From: an uncultured bacterium | GTDB lineage: Bacteria; Patescibacteriota; Patescibacteriia; Patescibacteriales; SZUA-104 | Length of the DNA: 42,643 nucleotides | Direction of reading: 5' to 3' | NCBI GenBank assembly: GCA_913009695.1 | Contig: CAJVWV010000008.1 | Coordinates: 1-42,643 of the forward strand | Shown here: piece by piece, positions 7,509 through 41,463 of the stretch | Layout: every line of letters begins with the position of its first letter | Position numbering within the stretch: the stretch's first letter is position 1 | The notes under the pieces: generated by a model | Database searches by the model: none | Seen by the model: the letters and a program-made list of their open reading frames with translations, nothing else | Told to the model about the DNA's origin: nothing | Program-made: the position numbers and the translations under genes

Positions 7509-7964
7509 ATGAATTACGAATTAAGAATTACGAATTATAAAAAATTGTTTTATTGTTTCATTGTTTCATTGTTGGCAGGTTTTTTTATTTTCTCTTTTAA
7601 CGTTGTTTTGGCCGATGGATTATTACCAGACAAAGAGAGCGCACCCGCTACAGGATCTGCTTGTACTTCAGATAACTGCGGTAATTATACATTAAATGAT
7701 ATGATGCAGGTTTTTGTGAATGTTTCTGAGTGGATATTGGGCATTGTAGGTTCGTTAGCTCTGCTTATGTTTATATACGGCGGGGTTATGTTTCTAATTT
7801 CCGGAGGCAGCGCCGAAAAAGTTACTCAAGCAAAGCAAATAATAGCCGGCGCGGTAATTGGTTTAGTAATAGTATTTACAAGTTATATAATAATTACTTT
7901 TGCCGCTCAAGCGCTTGGTATTGAAGTGACGGGCGGTATATTGCAAAGCGGCTGGCTACAATAA
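7509..7964 (+). CDS. T4SS VirB2-like pilin, copy 1
   Basis: A 151-aa pilin-like membrane protein. A signal peptide (LLAGFFIFSFNVVLA) is followed by a short polar region with two Cys (ACTSDNC), then two membrane helices. The first is ILGIVGSLALLMFIYGG and the second is AGAVIGLVIVFTSYIIITF, joined by the loop SGGSAEKVTQAK. This is the layout of VirB2/TrbC-type pilins and of the T4SS pilin family common in CPR bacteria. The N-terminal MNYELRITNYKK is encoded by an intergenic-type repeat, so translation may begin a little further in. Eight more intact paralogues occur in the window. It sits between a solute-binding protein and a RodZ-like gene. Confidence 0.85.
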   Translation: MNYELRITNYKKLFYCFIVSLLAGFFIFSFNVVLADGLLPDKESAPATGSACTSDNCGNYTLNDMMQVFVNVSEWILGIVGSLALLMFIYGGVMFLISGGSAEKVTQAKQIIAGAVIGLVIVFTSYIIITFAAQALGIEVTGGILQSGWLQ

Positions 7965-13486: not shown

Positions 13487-14563
13487 TTATTTATTGATTA
13501 AGAAGTTGCATATATCACCATCTTTAATTTCATATTCGCGTCCTTCGGTTTTTATTAATCCTTTTTCTTTTGCTTCTATCTCCCCGCCAACTTCAATAAA
13601 TTTTTTATAGCCTATAACTTCAGCGCGAATAAATCCTTTTTCAAAGTCAGTATGAATTACTCCGGCGGCAACAGGCGCTTTAGAATTTAATTTAGTCGTC
13701 CAGGCGCGTGTTTCATCCTCGCCGGTTGTAAAAAAGGTAATTAAACCGAGTAATTCATAGGAGATTTTTATAAGCTTTTCCAGCCCGCTTTCATTTAAAC
13801 CAAGCTCTTTTATATACTCAACCTGCTCTTCGTCAGAAAGGGCGACAATTTCTTCCTCTAATTTAGCGTTAATTTTAAGTACGTTTCCATCCCATTTTTT
13901 AATCCCCACATCCCCCTTTATCAAGGGGGTGTCTAAATTAGAATTTAAAACATATAAAATAGGTTTTATAGTAAGTAAATTTAAACTTTTTATTAATTTC
14001 TTTTCCTCTTCGTCCAGCTTAAATTCACGCGCTGCTTTCCCCGCTTCAAGCCCCTCTTTAAGCTTTTCAAGCAAATCTCTTAATTTTATCATTTCCTTGT
14101 CTCCGCTTTTAGCCTCCTTAGTAACCTTCGCTAATCTTTTTTCAACCGTTGATAAGTCAGCAAAAATAAGTTCAAGGTTGATTGTCTCTCTATCTCCATC
14201 AGGATCAATTTTTCCGTCAACATGAACAATATCTTTATCTTCAAATTCACGTACAACTTCGCATATCGCGTCGCACTCTCTGATGTGCGATAAAAATTGA
14301 TTACCCAGCCCCTCGCCTTTATGCGCGCCCTTAACTAAACCGGCAATATCTACGAATTCAATCACAGTTGGAATTATTTTTTTTGGATTTGAAATTTTAG
14401 CTAGCTGATCCAGTCTTCCATCAGGCACGGTAACAATACCGACATTCGGATCTATTGTACAAAAAGGATAATTAGAAGCCTCGGCCTTCTTTTTCGTTAA
14501 GGCGTTAAATAAAGTTGACTTACCGACATTAGGCAAGCCGACTATACCGATTGATAATGACAT
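13487..14563 (-). CDS. ychF: Ribosome-associated GTPase/ATPase YchF
   Basis: A 358-aa Obg-family P-loop protein. It has the G1 GLPNVGKST (residues 9-17), the switch region KAEASNYPFCTIDPNVGIV, the G3 DIAGLVKGAHKGEGLGNQFL segment, a coiled-coil insertion (about 130-200) and a C-terminal TGS domain (FFTTGEDETRAWT, then AAGVIHTDFEKGFIRAEVIG). YchF binds ribosomes and prefers ATP in the bacteria where it has been tested. About residues 210-221 (DTPLIKGDVGIK) are encoded by an in-frame copy of the CCCCCTTTA palindrome, at a variable position. It is convergent with the methyltransferase gene. Confidence 0.96.
   Translation of the reverse strand: MSLSIGIVGLPNVGKSTLFNALTKKKAEASNYPFCTIDPNVGIVTVPDGRLDQLAKISNPKKIIPTVIEFVDIAGLVKGAHKGEGLGNQFLSHIRECDAICEVVREFEDKDIVHVDGKIDPDGDRETINLELIFADLSTVEKRLAKVTKEAKSGDKEMIKLRDLLEKLKEGLEAGKAAREFKLDEEEKKLIKSLNLLTIKPILYVLNSNLDTPLIKGDVGIKKWDGNVLKINAKLEEEIVALSDEEQVEYIKELGLNESGLEKLIKISYELLGLITFFTTGEDETRAWTTKLNSKAPVAAGVIHTDFEKGFIRAEVIGYKKFIEVGGEIEAKEKGLIKTEGREYEIKDGDICNFLINK
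13901..13932. repeat. CCCCCTTTA-type palindrome inside ychF
   Basis: AATCCCCACATCCCCCTTTA, then tcaagggggtgt, with hairpin arms CCCCCTT and AAGGGGG. It is in frame within ychF. Confidence 0.8.
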
Positions 14564-24056: not shown

Positions 24057-24236
24057 TTGTTTTTTGTTTTGTTGTTTTTTTGATTTTATGTTAGAATATA
24101 TACAAGTATATTGTTGATAACTTTAAAAATAATCTTATACAAACTCACTTAAGATAGCTTATATACTTTGCTTATTTTATTATATAAATAAGTTGTCTTA
24201 TATAATTTTGTATAACTTTTAGAGAGGGGGTGAGAT

Positions 24237-24641
24237 ATGATGAAAAAATTATCAAAAGGAATAATAATTTCTGTAGCTATTTGTTTTGTTTTCGCTATGG
24301 CTCTTGCGGTAACATCGCCTGTTTTAGCGGCTAACACAGCCGACTCTCTTCTTTGGGGGAACACAGAAACAAATGTTGAGGCTGCTATTGGTTTAGGAAA
24401 TGAAGATCCAAGAATAATAGCCGCTGAAATAATTAATGTAATTTTAGGGTTTCTTGGAATAATCGCGGTTGTTATCATCTTACTCGGTGGATTTAAATGG
24501 ATGACTGGCGGAGGAAACGAAGACAAGATTGGAGAAGCAAAAAATTTATTAACTGCCGGCATAATCGGTTTAGTAATCATTTTGGCTTCTTGGGGTCTTG
24601 CTAAATTTGTTATTGACCTACTCTATAACGCGACCAGATAA
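24237..24641 (+). CDS. T4SS VirB2-like pilin, copy 2 (first of the tandem array)
   Basis: A 134-aa protein. A signal peptide ends at SPVLA-AN. Then come a polar segment and two helices (INVILGFLGIIAVVIILLGG and GIIGLVIILASWGLAKFVI) around the loop FKWMTGGGNEDKIGEAKN. It has the strongest Shine-Dalgarno in the area (AGAGGGGGTGA, 5-6 bases before ATG), unlike most genes here, so it is probably highly translated. Fold and length match VirB2/TrbC-type major pilin subunits. A 168-base spacer with two large hairpins separates it from the other five. Confidence 0.88.
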   Translation: MMKKLSKGIIISVAICFVFAMALAVTSPVLAANTADSLLWGNTETNVEAAIGLGNEDPRIIAAEIINVILGFLGIIAVVIILLGGFKWMTGGGNEDKIGEAKNLLTAGIIGLVIILASWGLAKFVIDLLYNATR

Positions 24642-24689
24642 CATAATTTTAAGGAACATAAAATTTTTAAAGTTAACTTAAAATATAGT

Positions 24690-24765
24690 GTATCTCATCC
24701 CGAACTCTCGGAATTGGGATATACTACTCTAACCATAAACGAAAATTTTGTGTTTAGAGTAGTGA
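24690..24765 (+). promoter_or_regulatory. Two hairpins between pilin copies 2 and 3
   Basis: AGTGTATctCATCCC pairs with GGGATATACT, and ACTACTCTAA pairs with TTAGAGTAGT around a 20-base AT-rich loop. There is no T-run. They may set the ratio of pilin 2 to the downstream pilins by RNA processing or act as a leader; a TATAAT lies at 24802-24807, just before the next start codon. Confidence 0.4.
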
Positions 24766-24809
24766 ACCACGTAAAACCACTTTGTGATAACTGGGTAAAA
24801 ATATAATCT

Positions 24810-25229
24810 ATGTATTTACCAAAAAATCAAAAAAAACTTCTATTTATACTTATAGTTTTTGTTTTTAGTTTTTTATTCGTAGCGCAAGGCGTAATAGCGG
24901 AAACCGGAGCTGAAGATGCTTTAAGTGGACTAAATACAACCGCCCAGACGGGCTTTGGAGGCGGCACTACAATTCCTGAGAACATTCAAAAACCCATCTC
25001 AGAACAAATAGGAACAATAATAGGAGCTTTACTCGCATTTATCGGCGTTATATTTTTTATTCTAATGATTTACGGAGGGTTTCTCTGGATGACAGCACAA
25101 GGGAACGAAGAACAAATAACAAAAGCTAAGAACTTAATTATCGCCGCGGTGATAGGAATAATTATAGTAATGTCCGCTTACGCAATTACGGCGTATATCG
25201 GTGGGACTTTAACTGGAGGCCAAACTTAA
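24810..25229 (+). CDS. T4SS VirB2-like pilin, copy 3
   Basis: A 139-aa protein. A signal peptide (LLFILIVFVFSFLFVAQGVIA) is followed by a polar Gly/Thr segment, then helix 1 (IGALLAFIGVIFFILMIYGG), the loop FLWMTAQGNEEQITKAKN and helix 2 (IIAAVIGIIIVMSAYAITAY). It is separated from copy 4 by only 6 bases, so the two are cotranscribed. The mature N-terminal region differs between copies while the two helices and loop are nearly constant. Confidence 0.88.
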   Translation: MYLPKNQKKLLFILIVFVFSFLFVAQGVIAETGAEDALSGLNTTAQTGFGGGTTIPENIQKPISEQIGTIIGALLAFIGVIFFILMIYGGFLWMTAQGNEEQITKAKNLIIAAVIGIIIVMSAYAITAYIGGTLTGGQT

Positions 25230-25235
25230 AATTAT

Positions 25236-25646
25236 ATGAAAAATAAAATCCTTTTTATACTTATTACTTTCGTTATATTGTTTTTTGGAATCATTAATAT
25301 AGTTTTAGCGGAAGAATTTGATTTTGAAGAAAACAGCGGTCTTATTGATACTGGACAGGGAGCGGGTTATGACACTGACTCATTGGTTTATGATTCTGAA
25401 AGCGCTCTTAATAATACAATCGGAAATATTATTAAAGCTGCTCTTTCTTTTCTCGGCGTTATATTTCTTATTCTTATGATTTACGGCGGATTTCTATGGA
25501 TGACAGCCAAAGGCAATGAAGAGGAAGTTACAAAAGCTAAAAATCTAATTAATGCCGCGATAATAGGCTTGATTATAGTTGTTTCCGCTTACGCGATTAG
25601 TTATTTTGTTATAAAAAATTTAAGTGGCGCGGCATTACCTAAATAA
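25236..25646 (+). CDS. T4SS VirB2-like pilin, copy 4
   Basis: A 136-aa protein with a signal peptide (ILFILITFVILFFGIINIVLA), an acidic mature start (EEFDFEENSGLIDTGQGAGY), then the pilin helices around FLWMTAKGNEEEVTKAKN and IGLIIVVSAYAISYFVI. It is most similar to copies 3 and 5 in the helix-loop-helix part. It lies 6 bases from each neighbour. Confidence 0.88.
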   Translation: MKNKILFILITFVILFFGIINIVLAEEFDFEENSGLIDTGQGAGYDTDSLVYDSESALNNTIGNIIKAALSFLGVIFLILMIYGGFLWMTAKGNEEEVTKAKNLINAAIIGLIIVVSAYAISYFVIKNLSGAALPK

Positions 25647-25652
25647 TAATTA

Positions 25653-26111
25653 ATGTCATACAATATAAAAAAATTAAATATCAATAAAATAGCTGTTTTA
25701 TTGGCAACTTTCTTTGTTGGCTTTTCTTGTTTCGCCGCTCCTAATGATTATAACGCAATAGAAGATGCTCCTAATCTAAAAAATGCTTTTACAGCAGAAC
25801 AGGCTGGTGACGAACCATTAATTGATACGGTTGCCAATATAAGCGGCTATGATGTTTCAAAATCAGAAGTAGAACCAATAATCGGCACAGTTATCCAAAC
25901 TATCCTTTCTCTATTAGGAATAATATTTGTTATATTAATGATCTACGGCGGATATTTATGGATGACTGCTAAGGGCAATGAGGAACAGGTCACAAAAGCT
26001 AAAAACGTAATTATCGCCGCCATAACCGGTTTAGTTATAGTTATTGCGGCTTACGCGATTAGTTATTTTGTAATAAGTAAAATAAGCGCGGGAGTATTAA
26101 AAACATCTTAA
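25653..26111 (+). CDS. T4SS VirB2-like pilin, copy 5
   Basis: A 152-aa protein. A signal peptide (IAVLLATFFVGFSCFA-AP) is followed by a longer polar region of about 50 residues, then helix 1 (LSLLGIIFVILMIYGG), the loop YLWMTAKGNEEQVTKAKN and helix 2 (ITGLVIVIAAYAISYFVI). It starts 6 bases after copy 4. Confidence 0.88.
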   Translation: MSYNIKKLNINKIAVLLATFFVGFSCFAAPNDYNAIEDAPNLKNAFTAEQAGDEPLIDTVANISGYDVSKSEVEPIIGTVIQTILSLLGIIFVILMIYGGYLWMTAKGNEEQVTKAKNVIIAAITGLVIVIAAYAISYFVISKISAGVLKTS

Positions 26112-26129
26112 ATTAATAAAAAATTTAAT

Positions 26130-26555
26130 ATGAATAAATTTTTAAAAGCATTAAATAATTGGGATTCCATTCGCGATAAAAAGTTTAAGGTAGCGGAACA
26201 AATTTTAATATTAGTTATTTTAGTAAGCATTTTAATTTTACCTTATTTTGTTTTCGCGGCAGGACCGATTGACAAACTAACATCAGTAGCAAACACAGGA
26301 GGATACGCAGACGCGAACGAAACCAGTTTTGCTTCAATTTTAGGTCTAGTAGTTAGCGCCTTTCTAAGCCTGCTTGGAATTATTTTTGTGATTTTAATGG
26401 TTTACGCCGGACACAACTGGATGACGGCAGCCGGCAATGAAGAAAAACTAAAAAAGGCTCAAGAAACCTTGTGGCGGGCGGTTATTGGATTAATAATTAT
26501 TATTGGAGCATGGGCGATTTGGCAATTTGTATGGACTTCAAACTTATTTCAATAA
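26130..26555 (+). CDS. T4SS VirB2-like pilin, copy 6
   Basis: A 141-aa protein. It has a longer charged N-terminus (MNKFLKALNNWDSIRDKKFK) before the signal helix (ILILVILVSILILPYFVFA-AG), then a short polar region, helix 1 (LSLLGIIFVILMVYAG), the loop HNWMTAAGNEEKLKKAQE and helix 2 (VIGLIIIIGAWAIWQFVW). Trp-rich helix 2 and the HNW loop set it apart from copies 3-5. Confidence 0.86.
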   Translation: MNKFLKALNNWDSIRDKKFKVAEQILILVILVSILILPYFVFAAGPIDKLTSVANTGGYADANETSFASILGLVVSAFLSLLGIIFVILMVYAGHNWMTAAGNEEKLKKAQETLWRAVIGLIIIIGAWAIWQFVWTSNLFQ

Positions 26556-26566
26556 TAATATATTTT

Positions 26567-27001
26567 ATGAAAGAAAAAAATAAAAAACATTCAAGGTACT
26601 TATTAATTAATATTTTATTATTTTCGTTGTTCGCTTTTAATATTTGTAGTGCCAAGGTTTCTGATCAATTAATACTTGATACAGACAATCAGAGCCAAGC
26701 ATTTCAAGTTGAGTCTGGGTATGCACCAACTACTTCTGTCGGAAGCATTATGGCCGCGGTCATAAAAGGCTTCTTAGGACTTCTTGGAATTATATTTGTA
26801 ATTTTAATAATTACAGCCGGCTATAACTGGATGACTGCTGCGGGAGAAGAAGAAAAAGTTAATAAAGCCAAAGATACCTTAAAGCGGGCAATAATCGGTT
26901 TAATAATAGTAGTTAGCGCCTACGCTATTACTTATTTCGTGTTTACGAATCTGCCAGGAGGAAGCACAACAGGACCAACGACAACAGTTCCCCCACAATA
27001 A
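26567..27001 (+). CDS. T4SS VirB2-like pilin, copy 7 (last of the tandem array)
   Basis: A 144-aa protein from the ATG at 26567 (MKEKNKKHSRYLLINILLFS). The track starts at 26471 inside copy 6, which is unlikely because those codons read the conserved part of copy 6 in another frame. It has a signal helix, a polar region, helix 1 (GFLGLLGIIFVILIITAG), the loop YNWMTAAGEEEKVNKAKD and helix 2 (IIGLIIVVSAYAITYFVF), then a Thr/Pro/Gly-rich tail (STTGPTTTVPPQ) that the other copies lack. A strong terminator follows 20 bases later. Confidence 0.86.
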   Translation: MKEKNKKHSRYLLINILLFSLFAFNICSAKVSDQLILDTDNQSQAFQVESGYAPTTSVGSIMAAVIKGFLGLLGIIFVILIITAGYNWMTAAGEEEKVNKAKDTLKRAIIGLIIVVSAYAITYFVFTNLPGGSTTGPTTTVPPQ

Positions 27002-27066: not shown

Positions 27067-27543
27067 TTATTCGTCACAACGCGCATACCAATGCACGTCC
27101 TGACCAAAAAATCTGTGAGTTTGTGTTGATACACGAAACTTCGATCTTTTACCGCAACTACCATTTACACATGACTGTGCTGTATATTCTCCGGGTATCA
27201 GATATATAGTATCCTGCATGTTCGGTGGCATAAGAAACCCTTTTGTCTCAGGACCATAAATACGAATATCACACTCTTCTCTGTTTGCATTGTAAACTAT
27301 ACCCTTGTATCCCATACTGGCTCCATTAATCATCATCGTCTGCGCTGGCTGAGCTTTAAGTTTTTCTAAGGCAAGCTTATCTTGTTTTATTCTAGCCACC
27401 TCGCTAGAGCCACCCAAGAAGTACCAATCACCATTATCGTATTGTGCTTCATTCCCATATAGGGTGGAGCACCCACTCATTATGATTGCTACGAACATCA
27501 ACATCAGTAAAACCACAACATTTTGCATTCTTTTCATTTTCAA
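27067..27543 (-). CDS. Lipoprotein of unknown function with strong Shine-Dalgarno
   Basis: A 158-aa protein with a canonical lipoprotein signal (VVVLLMLMFVAIIMSGCS; lipobox MSGC). The mature part starts STLYGNEAQYDNGDWYFLGG and includes a pair of Cys (TAQSCVNGSCGKRSKFRV) and an aromatic, Gly-rich C-terminal part. I do not recognise the family. It has a perfect AGGAGG 7 bases before the ATG, rare in this window, and a separate promoter about 300 bases upstream. These traits and its orientation against all neighbours suggest a recently acquired gene. Confidence 0.7.
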   Translation of the reverse strand: MKMKRMQNVVVLLMLMFVAIIMSGCSTLYGNEAQYDNGDWYFLGGSSEVARIKQDKLALEKLKAQPAQTMMINGASMGYKGIVYNANREECDIRIYGPETKGFLMPPNMQDTIYLIPGEYTAQSCVNGSCGKRSKFRVSTQTHRFFGQDVHWYARCDE

Positions 27544-28045: not shown

Positions 28046-28561
28046 ATGGAAGCGCTTAAGCAAAACCACAAAAAACTAATATTACCCAGAAAGGCTAAAA
28101 AACTAATAATTTTATTGGTTTTTGTGCTTTGTTTTGATTTTGCTTTGTTTTTCATGCCGGCTTTAGCTAACGCGGCAACGGAAGAAACTATTATTGACCA
28201 AGAAGTGATGGTTGATCAAGTAATTGAACATTTACCGCAAAATAACGATTTAACAATAAAAAGCACTAGTTTGCGCGTAATTACAGCTTATAATTCTGAA
28301 CCGGGTCAAACTGACAACACTCCCTGCATTACAGCCAATAACTTTAATTTGTGTGAGCATGGCATTGAAGATACAGTTGCGGCTAATTTCCTGCCATTTG
28401 GCGTAAAAGTAAGGATTCCTGAGCTTTTTGGAGACAGAGTGTTTGTTGTTCGGGATAGAATGCATTCACGATTTTCAAACAGGATTGACGTATGGATGTT
28501 AGAAAAAGCCGATGCTATAAATCTTGGCATAAAATCAACTAAAATTGAGGTTCTTGAATAA
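28046..28561 (+). CDS. Secreted 3D-domain protein
   Basis: A 171-aa protein. A basic N-terminus and hydrophobic signal (LIILLVFVLCFDFALFFMPA) end near LANA-ATE, then a short linker. The 3D (double-psi beta-barrel) domain has RVITAYNSEPGQTDNTPCIT, then VAANFLPFGVKVRIPELFGD, then VFVVRDRMHSRFSNRIDVWM. The third Asp of the DxD signature is in IDVW. Such domains act on or bind peptidoglycan, as in MltA and YabE-like proteins. Two Cys may form a disulfide. The start is chosen on the basis of the signal peptide. Confidence 0.85.
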   Translation: MEALKQNHKKLILPRKAKKLIILLVFVLCFDFALFFMPALANAATEETIIDQEVMVDQVIEHLPQNNDLTIKSTSLRVITAYNSEPGQTDNTPCITANNFNLCEHGIEDTVAANFLPFGVKVRIPELFGDRVFVVRDRMHSRFSNRIDVWMLEKADAINLGIKSTKIEVLE

Positions 28562-36300: not shown

Positions 36301-36759
36301 ATGCAAACAACCACAAAAAAAATAATTAACAGTCTTGTTGTTTTATCAATTTTTCTTTTAATGGCGCAGATAGCCCTAATCCATGGAGCGCCAGCGGCAG
36401 AAGCGGGAAATTTATGGGACATGCAAAAACAGTCTGATTTTCAGGATGAAATCGGCAAAGAAGCGTTTCAAGTAATTGATCCCGATAAACCAGAAGACAT
36501 AAGAGTAATAGTTGCCGGGGTTATACGAGCTCTTCTTGGAGCTCTGGGTATTGTTTTTGTATTTTTATTGGTTATAGCCGGCTACAAGTGGATGACTGCC
36601 GCGGGCAATGAAGAAAAAGTAACTGAAGCAATGAGCCAAATAAAAATGGCTATTATAGGCTTAATAATAGTTCTCGCGGCGTGGTCTATAACAACTTTTA
36701 TTGGTAATTGTCTAGTTGATGTTACCGGGGTTTCATCATATAAATGGTACTGCCCTTAA
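36301..36759 (+). CDS. T4SS VirB2-like pilin, copy 8
   Basis: A 152-aa protein with a signal peptide (LVVLSIFLLMAQIALIHGAP, likely cut near AEA). A charged region is followed by helix 1 (LLGALGIVFVFLLVIAG), the loop YKWMTAAGNEEKVTEAMS and helix 2 (AIIGLIIVLAAWSITTFIG). It has a C-terminal tail with two Cys (NCLVDVTGVSSYKWYCP) not seen in the others; these could form a disulfide. It has its own promoter, and the glycosidase gene follows. Confidence 0.86.
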   Translation: MQTTTKKIINSLVVLSIFLLMAQIALIHGAPAAEAGNLWDMQKQSDFQDEIGKEAFQVIDPDKPEDIRVIVAGVIRALLGALGIVFVFLLVIAGYKWMTAAGNEEKVTEAMSQIKMAIIGLIIVLAAWSITTFIGNCLVDVTGVSSYKWYCP

Positions 36760-40018: not shown

Positions 40019-40156
40019 TATGAAACCCCTAAACCCGTAAATACAAATTTTACTAACGCATAGGAGGAAAAGATAATGAAAAGCCCAGCGGCCGCCCAGA
40101 CTAAAACATCTCTTCCTTTAGTTACTTTTTCCTGATTACCGGCAAGTCATCTATAC
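40019..40156 (-). pseudogene. Remnant of T4SS pilin (second copy)
   Basis: The minus-strand frame reads NQEKVTKGRDVLVWAAAGLF, then IIFSSYALVKFVFTGLGVS and a stop. It is nearly identical to the C-terminal 39 residues of the intact pilin at 41068. The signal peptide, mature N-terminus and helix 1 are missing. The high DNA identity points to a recent duplication followed by deletion. Confidence 0.85.
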
Positions 40157-41067: not shown

Positions 41068-41463
41068 TCAAGAAACCCCTAAACCAGTAAAAACGAATTT
41101 CACCAATGCGTAGGAGGAAAAGATAATGAAAAGCCCAACGGCCGCCCAAACTAAAACGTCTCTTCCCTTAGTTACTTTTTCCTGATTGCCCGCGGCAGTC
41201 ATCCAGATAAAACCTCCGTAGATAACCATGACTAAAGCAATAGAACCGACTATACCTAAAATAGCCTGAATGATGTTGCCCATGAGAACCTCAGGTGTTG
41301 TTGTCTTGCCAAGGGGATTGTCGAGGGTGACGGGTTTGCTCGTGTCTAGGGCCTCACTAGATATAGGTCCTTCATCAGCAGCATTACATAATAAAACAAA
41401 ATTAAAATTTATTAAAATAAAAAGTGATAATATTGATAATAAAAATATTGTTTTTTTTGTCAT
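41068..41463 (-). CDS. T4SS VirB2-like pilin, copy 9
   Basis: A 131-aa protein. A signal peptide (KTIFLLSILSLFILINFNFV) ends near LCNA-ADE, then a polar region with PVTLDNPLGKTTTPE. The helices are MGNIIQAILGIVGSIALVMV and VWAAVGLFIIFSSYALVKFV around the loop FIWMTAAGNQEKVTKGRD. It is the parent, or a sister, of the two decayed copies at 39889 and 40019. It lies next to the giant surface protein on the same strand. Confidence 0.87.
   Translation of the reverse strand: MTKKTIFLLSILSLFILINFNFVLLCNAADEGPISSEALDTSKPVTLDNPLGKTTTPEVLMGNIIQAILGIVGSIALVMVIYGGFIWMTAAGNQEKVTKGRDVLVWAAVGLFIIFSSYALVKFVFTGLGVS

Follow-up and report, generated by a model that had tools for sequence, protein, structure and literature searches.

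Why should a bacterium keep six genes for the same kind of pilin side by side? The question is raised by a 42,643-nucleotide (nt) stretch of contig CAJVWV010000008.1 (assembly GCA_913009695.1; "the window" is this whole stretch), in which six genes for VirB2-like pilins of a type IV secretion system (T4SS) lie head to tail at 24237-27001 and three more stand singly at 7509, 36301 and 41068. The source is very probably a Ca. Falkowbacteria-like bacterium or a near relative, of the class ABY1 of the Patescibacteria, a vast group whose members are for the most part uncultured and are believed to live on other cells, and is itself ultrasmall and probably host-dependent. One of the few culturable Patescibacteria, Ca. 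Southlakia epibionticum, cannot do without its six-pilin T4SS array (Wang et al. 2023, PMC10633639; review PMC12857230).

The explanation that we consider on the whole rather probable is that the six genes would encode VirB2-like subunits of the Patescibacteria T4SS, each distinct, in an ordered set of ancient origin. The first, P1, would be the abundant main pilin, overproduced by way of a ribosome-binding site of its own and of a block of hairpins behind it that would protect the mRNA, and P2 to P6 would be minor subunits made in small amounts. We infer that these subunits assemble, in unequal ratios, into a filament, and that two unlinked giant proteins (A and B) join P1 through the pilin domain that they have in common with it and expose long ectodomains, beta-rich and immunoglobulin (Ig)-like, at the tip or base of this envelope appendage, which may be used for attachment to, or material exchange with, another cell. 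Fixed distinct parts, a main subunit and co-varying giants would replace the picture of "many variable pilins" by a machine concrete enough to be tested and, if true, would provide a VirB2-class pilin that is modular and possibly adhesive.

The pilin array and its distribution

All nine pilin genes of the window, six in tandem and three elsewhere as the preliminary description had listed them, are open and intact, and all score 29.5-49.6 bits with PF18895 (T4SS_pilin), over its curated cut-off of 26.6 bits (E 7.7e-7 to 4.1e-13). On the forward strand P1 lies at 24237-24641 and has a GLGxxDPR motif before its first transmembrane helix. It is followed by P2 (24810-25229) and P4 (25653-26111), both assigned by PF18895, position matches and the tree, with P3 (25236-25646), a further PF18895 match mutually less well separated from P4, between them, and by P5 (26130-26555) and P6 (26567-27001), which belong to the penultimate- and last-position orthologue groups. 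The gap between P1 and P2 is 168 nt, and those in the tight part are 6, 6, 18 and 11 nt, in agreement with the 6-18 bases first noted. A GTG start for the sixth gene at 26471 overlaps the fifth gene by 85 nt, and the ATG at 26567, which gives a 144-residue protein with a normal-looking signal peptide, is probably the true start. The mean local identity among the six genes is about 42%, which fits the published definition of an array as 2-11 divergent tandem pilin genes (PMC12102498).

An AlphaFold2 (AF2) model of P1 has helices at residues 58-90 and 95-133, with predicted local distance difference test (pLDDT) scores of about 71-87 in that part except its end. A two-helix membrane hairpin thus follows the N-terminal signal peptide (signal peptides were judged by eye), the same layout as in the conjugative pilins VirB2/TrbC. 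Similarity to the TrbC/VirB2 model PF04956 is weak and confined to some copies, nine of nine window genes falling under its curated cut-off of 27.9 bits (best 23.7 bits, E 5.5e-5), and the conjugative systems have one pilin gene where many paralogues are found here. Two window genes exceed the cut-off of NCBIfam family NF045849 (Mbov_0395 pilin-like conjugal transfer), and a sequence search of the PDB returned no informative relative. Together with the VirB4 and PrgI genes of the genome, described below, the PF18895 matches and the model support the earlier proposal of several exported, VirB2-like hairpin paralogues that could plausibly be built into a filament or a secretion channel.

The assembly (939 kb in 43 contigs, about 80% complete) holds 17 PF18895 matches, 15 of them over the cut-off, which provides the genome-wide pilin count that the preliminary description had proposed. 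Genome sequence was sampled as stretches around matches. PF18895 was found in 60/60 relatives, with 4-20 matches each, so that none of them resembles the single-copy genomes that would have spoken against the proposal, and in 234/241 genomes across the phylum. With PF18895 lacking in 13 of 14 control genomes and such an array present in many of the order's families, chance is not the explanation. Arrays comprise six to eight genes within the order, and across the class they range from 4 to about 12.

Taken alone, the array is not new, because a survey of Patescibacteria (Quinonero-Coronel et al. 2025, PMC12102498) counted 441 arrays, each with 2-11 VirB2-like genes, in 383 assemblies and the essential six-pilin array had been reported (PMC10633639). 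The expectation that T4SS operons have one pilin, against which the locus was originally judged, is therefore the wrong yardstick for this phylum (see also PMC12857230). Like the surveyed arrays, the present one belongs to the same Pfam family and consists of highly divergent tandem members. That of Ca. Southlakia epibionticum also has six sequence-divergent tandem VirB2-like genes; it lies inside the T4SS cluster, whereas here array and virB4 are apart, and the two arrays are alike in the number and kind of their genes. In the literature as far as searched, neither the ordered set of subunits nor the signals of P1 nor the co-varying giant pilins are described, and all three appear new; a term search of the text of PMC12102498 found no mention of positional orthology, of main and minor expression signals or of giant P1-type pilins.

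Array members keep their positions

Sixteen arrays of six to eight genes were taken from the order. Among the eight arrays with exactly six genes the best match of a member fell on the same position in 232/336 cases, compared with 56 expected by chance. The tree groups for P1, P2, P5 and P6 each unite genes from different families, which is what the phylogeny suggested in the preliminary description brought out, and the position label changed 8 times on the tree, as against a mean of 27.2 and a minimum of 21 in 2000 within-genome shuffles. When 15 arrays were labelled as first, middle, penultimate and last, 9 changes were counted (shuffles: mean 41.6, minimum 35). In arrays of other classes the best-matching position profile was ambiguous and the assignment not decisive.

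It had been suggested that the constant core and varying ends of these proteins would suit changeable surface subunits, and a variable-surface system, in which paralogues are exchanged or expressed in turn to vary antigens or host range, has been proposed for VirB2 paralogues in Bartonella and Anaplasma; for the Patescibacteria arrays it was suggested in PMC12102498. The mature N-termini are indeed the least conserved part of the proteins, far below the core, and degenerate copies related to one of the single genes (see below) are possible donors for that gene. Nevertheless, the likeness of the mature N-termini is 0.12-0.25 within a position, 0.064 between positions and 0.030 when shuffled, the positions are orthologous across families, and the extra copies and recent duplicates present in several arrays are mostly P1 duplicates, so that the members do not behave as interchangeable or recombining paralogues. 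The expression signals specific to P1, described in the next section, are conserved as well. The label changes and the N-termini do not bear out changeable subunits; antigenic variation was rejected as the leading explanation on positional orthology across families, and we regard a variable surface as improbable. Because order and position are conserved across families and N-termini are more alike within positions, the array members appear, on these comparisons, to be distinct fixed subunits, an ancient ordered set and not spare variants, unlike the variation and host versatility seen in such arrays by PMC12102498.

Old duplications kept by drift, without any division of labour, are a further possible origin of the array: all members have one core in common, and gain and loss of members is seen in the varying array sizes. 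Strongly reduced genomes would, however, lose redundant copies, and position-specific motifs and gene order have persisted, which makes drift a very improbable account of the array.

Signals that set P1 apart

Across the 16 arrays the Shine-Dalgarno (SD) duplex energy averaged -9.8 kcal/mol for P1, compared with -1.2 kcal/mol for the other members, a contrast obtained with a method that picks the best in-frame ATG, so that individual minor-gene values are possibly too favourable. The P1 site in the window (GAGAGGGGGTGAG, 24222-24234, forward strand) reaches -11.7 kcal/mol; a strong P1 SD is present in 15/16 arrays, and a P1-type gene has an SD of -11.3 kcal/mol or stronger in 7/8 class-mates from other orders. 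Behind P1 the spacer measures 55-211 nt in most arrays, while only a few nt separate the other members. In the window this spacer contains two adjacent RNA hairpins at 24690-24763 (24690-24722 and 24723-24763, forward strand; z about -3.7 to -3.8), and unusually stable RNA directly 3' of a P1 copy was found in 15/16 arrays (z about -2.5 to -9.3). The hairpins were considered as terminators and rejected, as no U tail was present in the eight spacers read, that of the window included, and a terminator scan did not flag them.

Intercistronic hairpins stabilise mRNA in the puf operon of Rhodobacter, where stable stem-loops without a U tail likewise stand behind a gene needed in excess. The genes are unrelated, and here the role is predicted from RNA folding. 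By analogy, the hairpins in the P1-P2 spacer would protect the P1 mRNA and set the excess of P1, which is probably the abundant main subunit. In a metatranscriptome of archaea-associated Patescibacteria, T4SS pilins were among the highly expressed exported genes, reported without position data (PMC10936435).

Giant pilins related to P1

Unlinked to the array, two neighbouring genes on contig C9 encode proteins of 887 and 2035 residues, giants A and B, each with a signal peptide and pilin hairpin followed by Ig-like (Big_5, TIG) and fn3 domains. Across genomes the two are about 890 and 1,800-14,000 residues long. The pilin-bearing pair was present in 18/18 genomes of the order whose giant loci were fetched, and pilin-bearing giants in 8/8 class-mates studied in detail, in one of which (G244) only the larger was seen. 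Relatives of giant A number 140 among 85,000 species genomes and occur in Falkowbacteria, Buchananbacteria, Uhrbacteria, Komeilibacteria and other Patescibacteria. The largest giant, of 14,252 residues, was found in genome G141.

P1 and all giants form one clade (Shimodaira-Hasegawa-like approximate likelihood ratio test, SH-aLRT, 94). The mature pilin identity between P1 and giant B is 53.1% within a genome and 42.5% between genomes (17/17, p=1.5e-5), and that between P1 and giant A 49.7% and 41.7% (13/16, p=0.003). The controls P2, P5 and P6 had no within-genome excess of likeness to the giants. In the signal peptides there was no within-genome effect for P1 and giant B and a small one for P1 and giant A (27.6 vs 23.6%, p=0.006). 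The P1 of G278 has a mature start of the form NADxYYGxNDLVQQGxRL in common with both giants of that genome, to which it is unlinked. Recent gene conversion was examined as the source of this likeness and is unlikely, since codon identity at shared residues is 0.39 between P1 and the giants, not above the 0.44 of the P1-P2 control; between the adjacent giants A and B it is 0.52 vs 0.37, and some conversion between these two is possible. The simplest reading of the co-variation suggests a matched interface, that is, co-assembly of P1 with the giants.

The model of giant A (mean pLDDT 82) has a helical hairpin and a beta-rich ectodomain, and a structure search with it gave only weak matches to S-layer and Ig-like proteins and no convincing solved structure. 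A small pilin module joined to a large separate one recalls type IV pilins of modular build, PilB of Streptococcus sanguinis among them, for which a tip location is inferred from fusions of this shape (PMC8179133). Modular type IV pilins, defined by a class III signal peptide and a type IV pilin N-terminal domain, are assembled by another machine, however, and the giants matched no type IV pilin domain; they start with a VirB2-like hairpin (PF18895) and carry an ectodomain of 400 to about 14,000 residues.

Secretion machinery and the case for an appendage

The preliminary description had noted correctly that the window holds no VirB4 gene. A search of the whole genome, which it had proposed, located a split VirB4 (641 + 227 residues; PF19044, 98 bits) and PrgI (PF12666, 32.3 bits) on contig C7, beside a ComF-like gene, whereas VirB6 was not found there with PF04610. 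VirB4 next to comF has been reported for ABY1, and an MPF-FATA-like VirB4 with PrgI in the genome is a further likeness to the published arrays; nearness of the array to virB4, seen in part of those genomes and not required, is lacking here, the array being on contig C8 (PMC12102498). A VirD4 search gave two ambiguous PF12696 matches, both in HerA-like ATPases. Arrays adjoin PrgI in three genomes from other classes, in one of which VirB4 was confirmed, and the pilin family is therefore tied to the T4SS. Beside VirB4 a single-transmembrane protein (L049:9310-9927, minus strand), whose C-terminal part is NTF2/VirB8-like by eye and has no Pfam match, is a candidate VirB8.

The same hairpins might instead build a heteromeric assembly in the cytoplasmic membrane, ring-shaped or patch-like, as a channel or platform of the T4SS to which the giants would be anchored through the same scaffold. 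Hairpin topology in the AF2 model suits a ring, T4SS of monoderms are usually without pili (PMC12102498), and VirB6, the usual platform, had no PF04610 match in the roughly 80%-complete genome, although VirB6 is very divergent in this phylum. On the other side, the family is annotated as pilin, P1 is apparently made in larger excess than a channel ring needs, and the cultured relative, in which no pilus has been imaged either, depends on a six-member array next to its T4SS (PMC10633639). We therefore hold a membrane scaffold to be unlikely, if less so than a variable surface.

The VirB6 result also weighs against the proposed ordered, giant-bearing appendage, as do several other points. In this order virB4 is not linked to the array, and a structure search with the P1 model returned nothing at E<=0.001 and no convincing solved pilin. 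The trees were built on about 125 columns, the proteins being short, and many of their forks lack resolution; P3 and P4 are poorly separated, and the array of genome G008 departs from the pattern, with two P1-type genes and a last three that are mutual nearest relatives. The within- and between-genome comparison of P1 with the giants was made without a species-tree model, an ancient paralogue split alone predicting no effect, and the giants could use the hairpin merely as a membrane anchor.

Single pilins and neighbouring genes

Of the single pilins, the gene at 7509-7964 (forward) is the orthologue of the first, and that at 41068-41463 (minus) of the second, pilin of contiguous ABY1 arrays. 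The third (36301-36759, forward) is nearest to the clade of P1 and the giants in the tree and has an orthologue in G041 with the same neighbours, a flippase and a glycoside hydrolase. Ten nt upstream of the 7509 pilin lies a gene for an SBP_bac_1 solute-binding lipoprotein (PF01547; 6116-7498, forward), homologues of which, in several classes, adjoin a pilin gene in 17/17 loci where found. Because other ABY1 orders hold this lipoprotein, a 7509-type pilin, a 41068-type pilin, P1 and P2 to P6-like genes in one contiguous run, gene order indicates that at least two of the three singles are dispersed members of one old cluster. Tentatively, one may picture a heteromeric VirB2-class appendage of ABY1 bacteria, with one abundant and several minor pilins, two giant modular pilins (to about 14,000 residues) with which P1 would co-evolve and which would cap or decorate it, and an orphan solute-binding lipoprotein; such a T4SS-filament architecture, new and serving cell-to-cell attachment or uptake, seems possible, though doubtful in full. 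No ABC (ATP-binding cassette) permease gene stands beside the lipoprotein gene in the window.

A degenerate tenth copy (40022-40151, minus) has 88% DNA identity to part of the 41068 gene. On contig C24 (L050) partial copies of the same type lie at 1-235, 2178-2326 and 13487-13732, some of them broken or at contig ends. With DNA identities of 88-93% overall, these partial copies are possibly products of recent duplication or donor cassettes for that one gene.

Next to the array, a gene for an exported protein (28046-28561, forward) is conserved in 11/16 array loci and looks 3D-domain-like by eye; its identification as a lytic, VirB1-like 3D-domain protein was a guess without a Pfam match and was dropped. 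A small lipoprotein gene (27067-27543) on the opposite strand, also an array neighbour, has homologues in two other loci.

Other observations

In G141 the largest giant occupies contig C1 from about 501,271 (L180:4772 through L193 and L194) as a single open reading frame (ORF) of 14,252 residues that starts with a pilin domain of the P1 type; this stretch has two further frames that stay open for >13,000 codons, which points to highly repetitive DNA. In other Patescibacteria classes the pilin domain occurs in fusions 600-1600 residues long, some of them within arrays (L166:7841-11560, L167:8667-13454 and two genes in L176). At 140-152 of the window (minus strand), at the end of ORF 114-1292, there is an Illumina adapter (AGATCGGAAGAGC), and the ORF tail RSEEHTSELQSH is the translated adapter; contigs C9 and C40 have ORFs beginning MLFRS, which suggests that they contain adapters as well. 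A gene at 1649-2806 matches IS200-like Y1 transposase weakly, below the cut-off (2112-2735), and has inverted repeats of about 41 bp on either side, and this stretch is likely a REP-type (repetitive extragenic palindromic) element.

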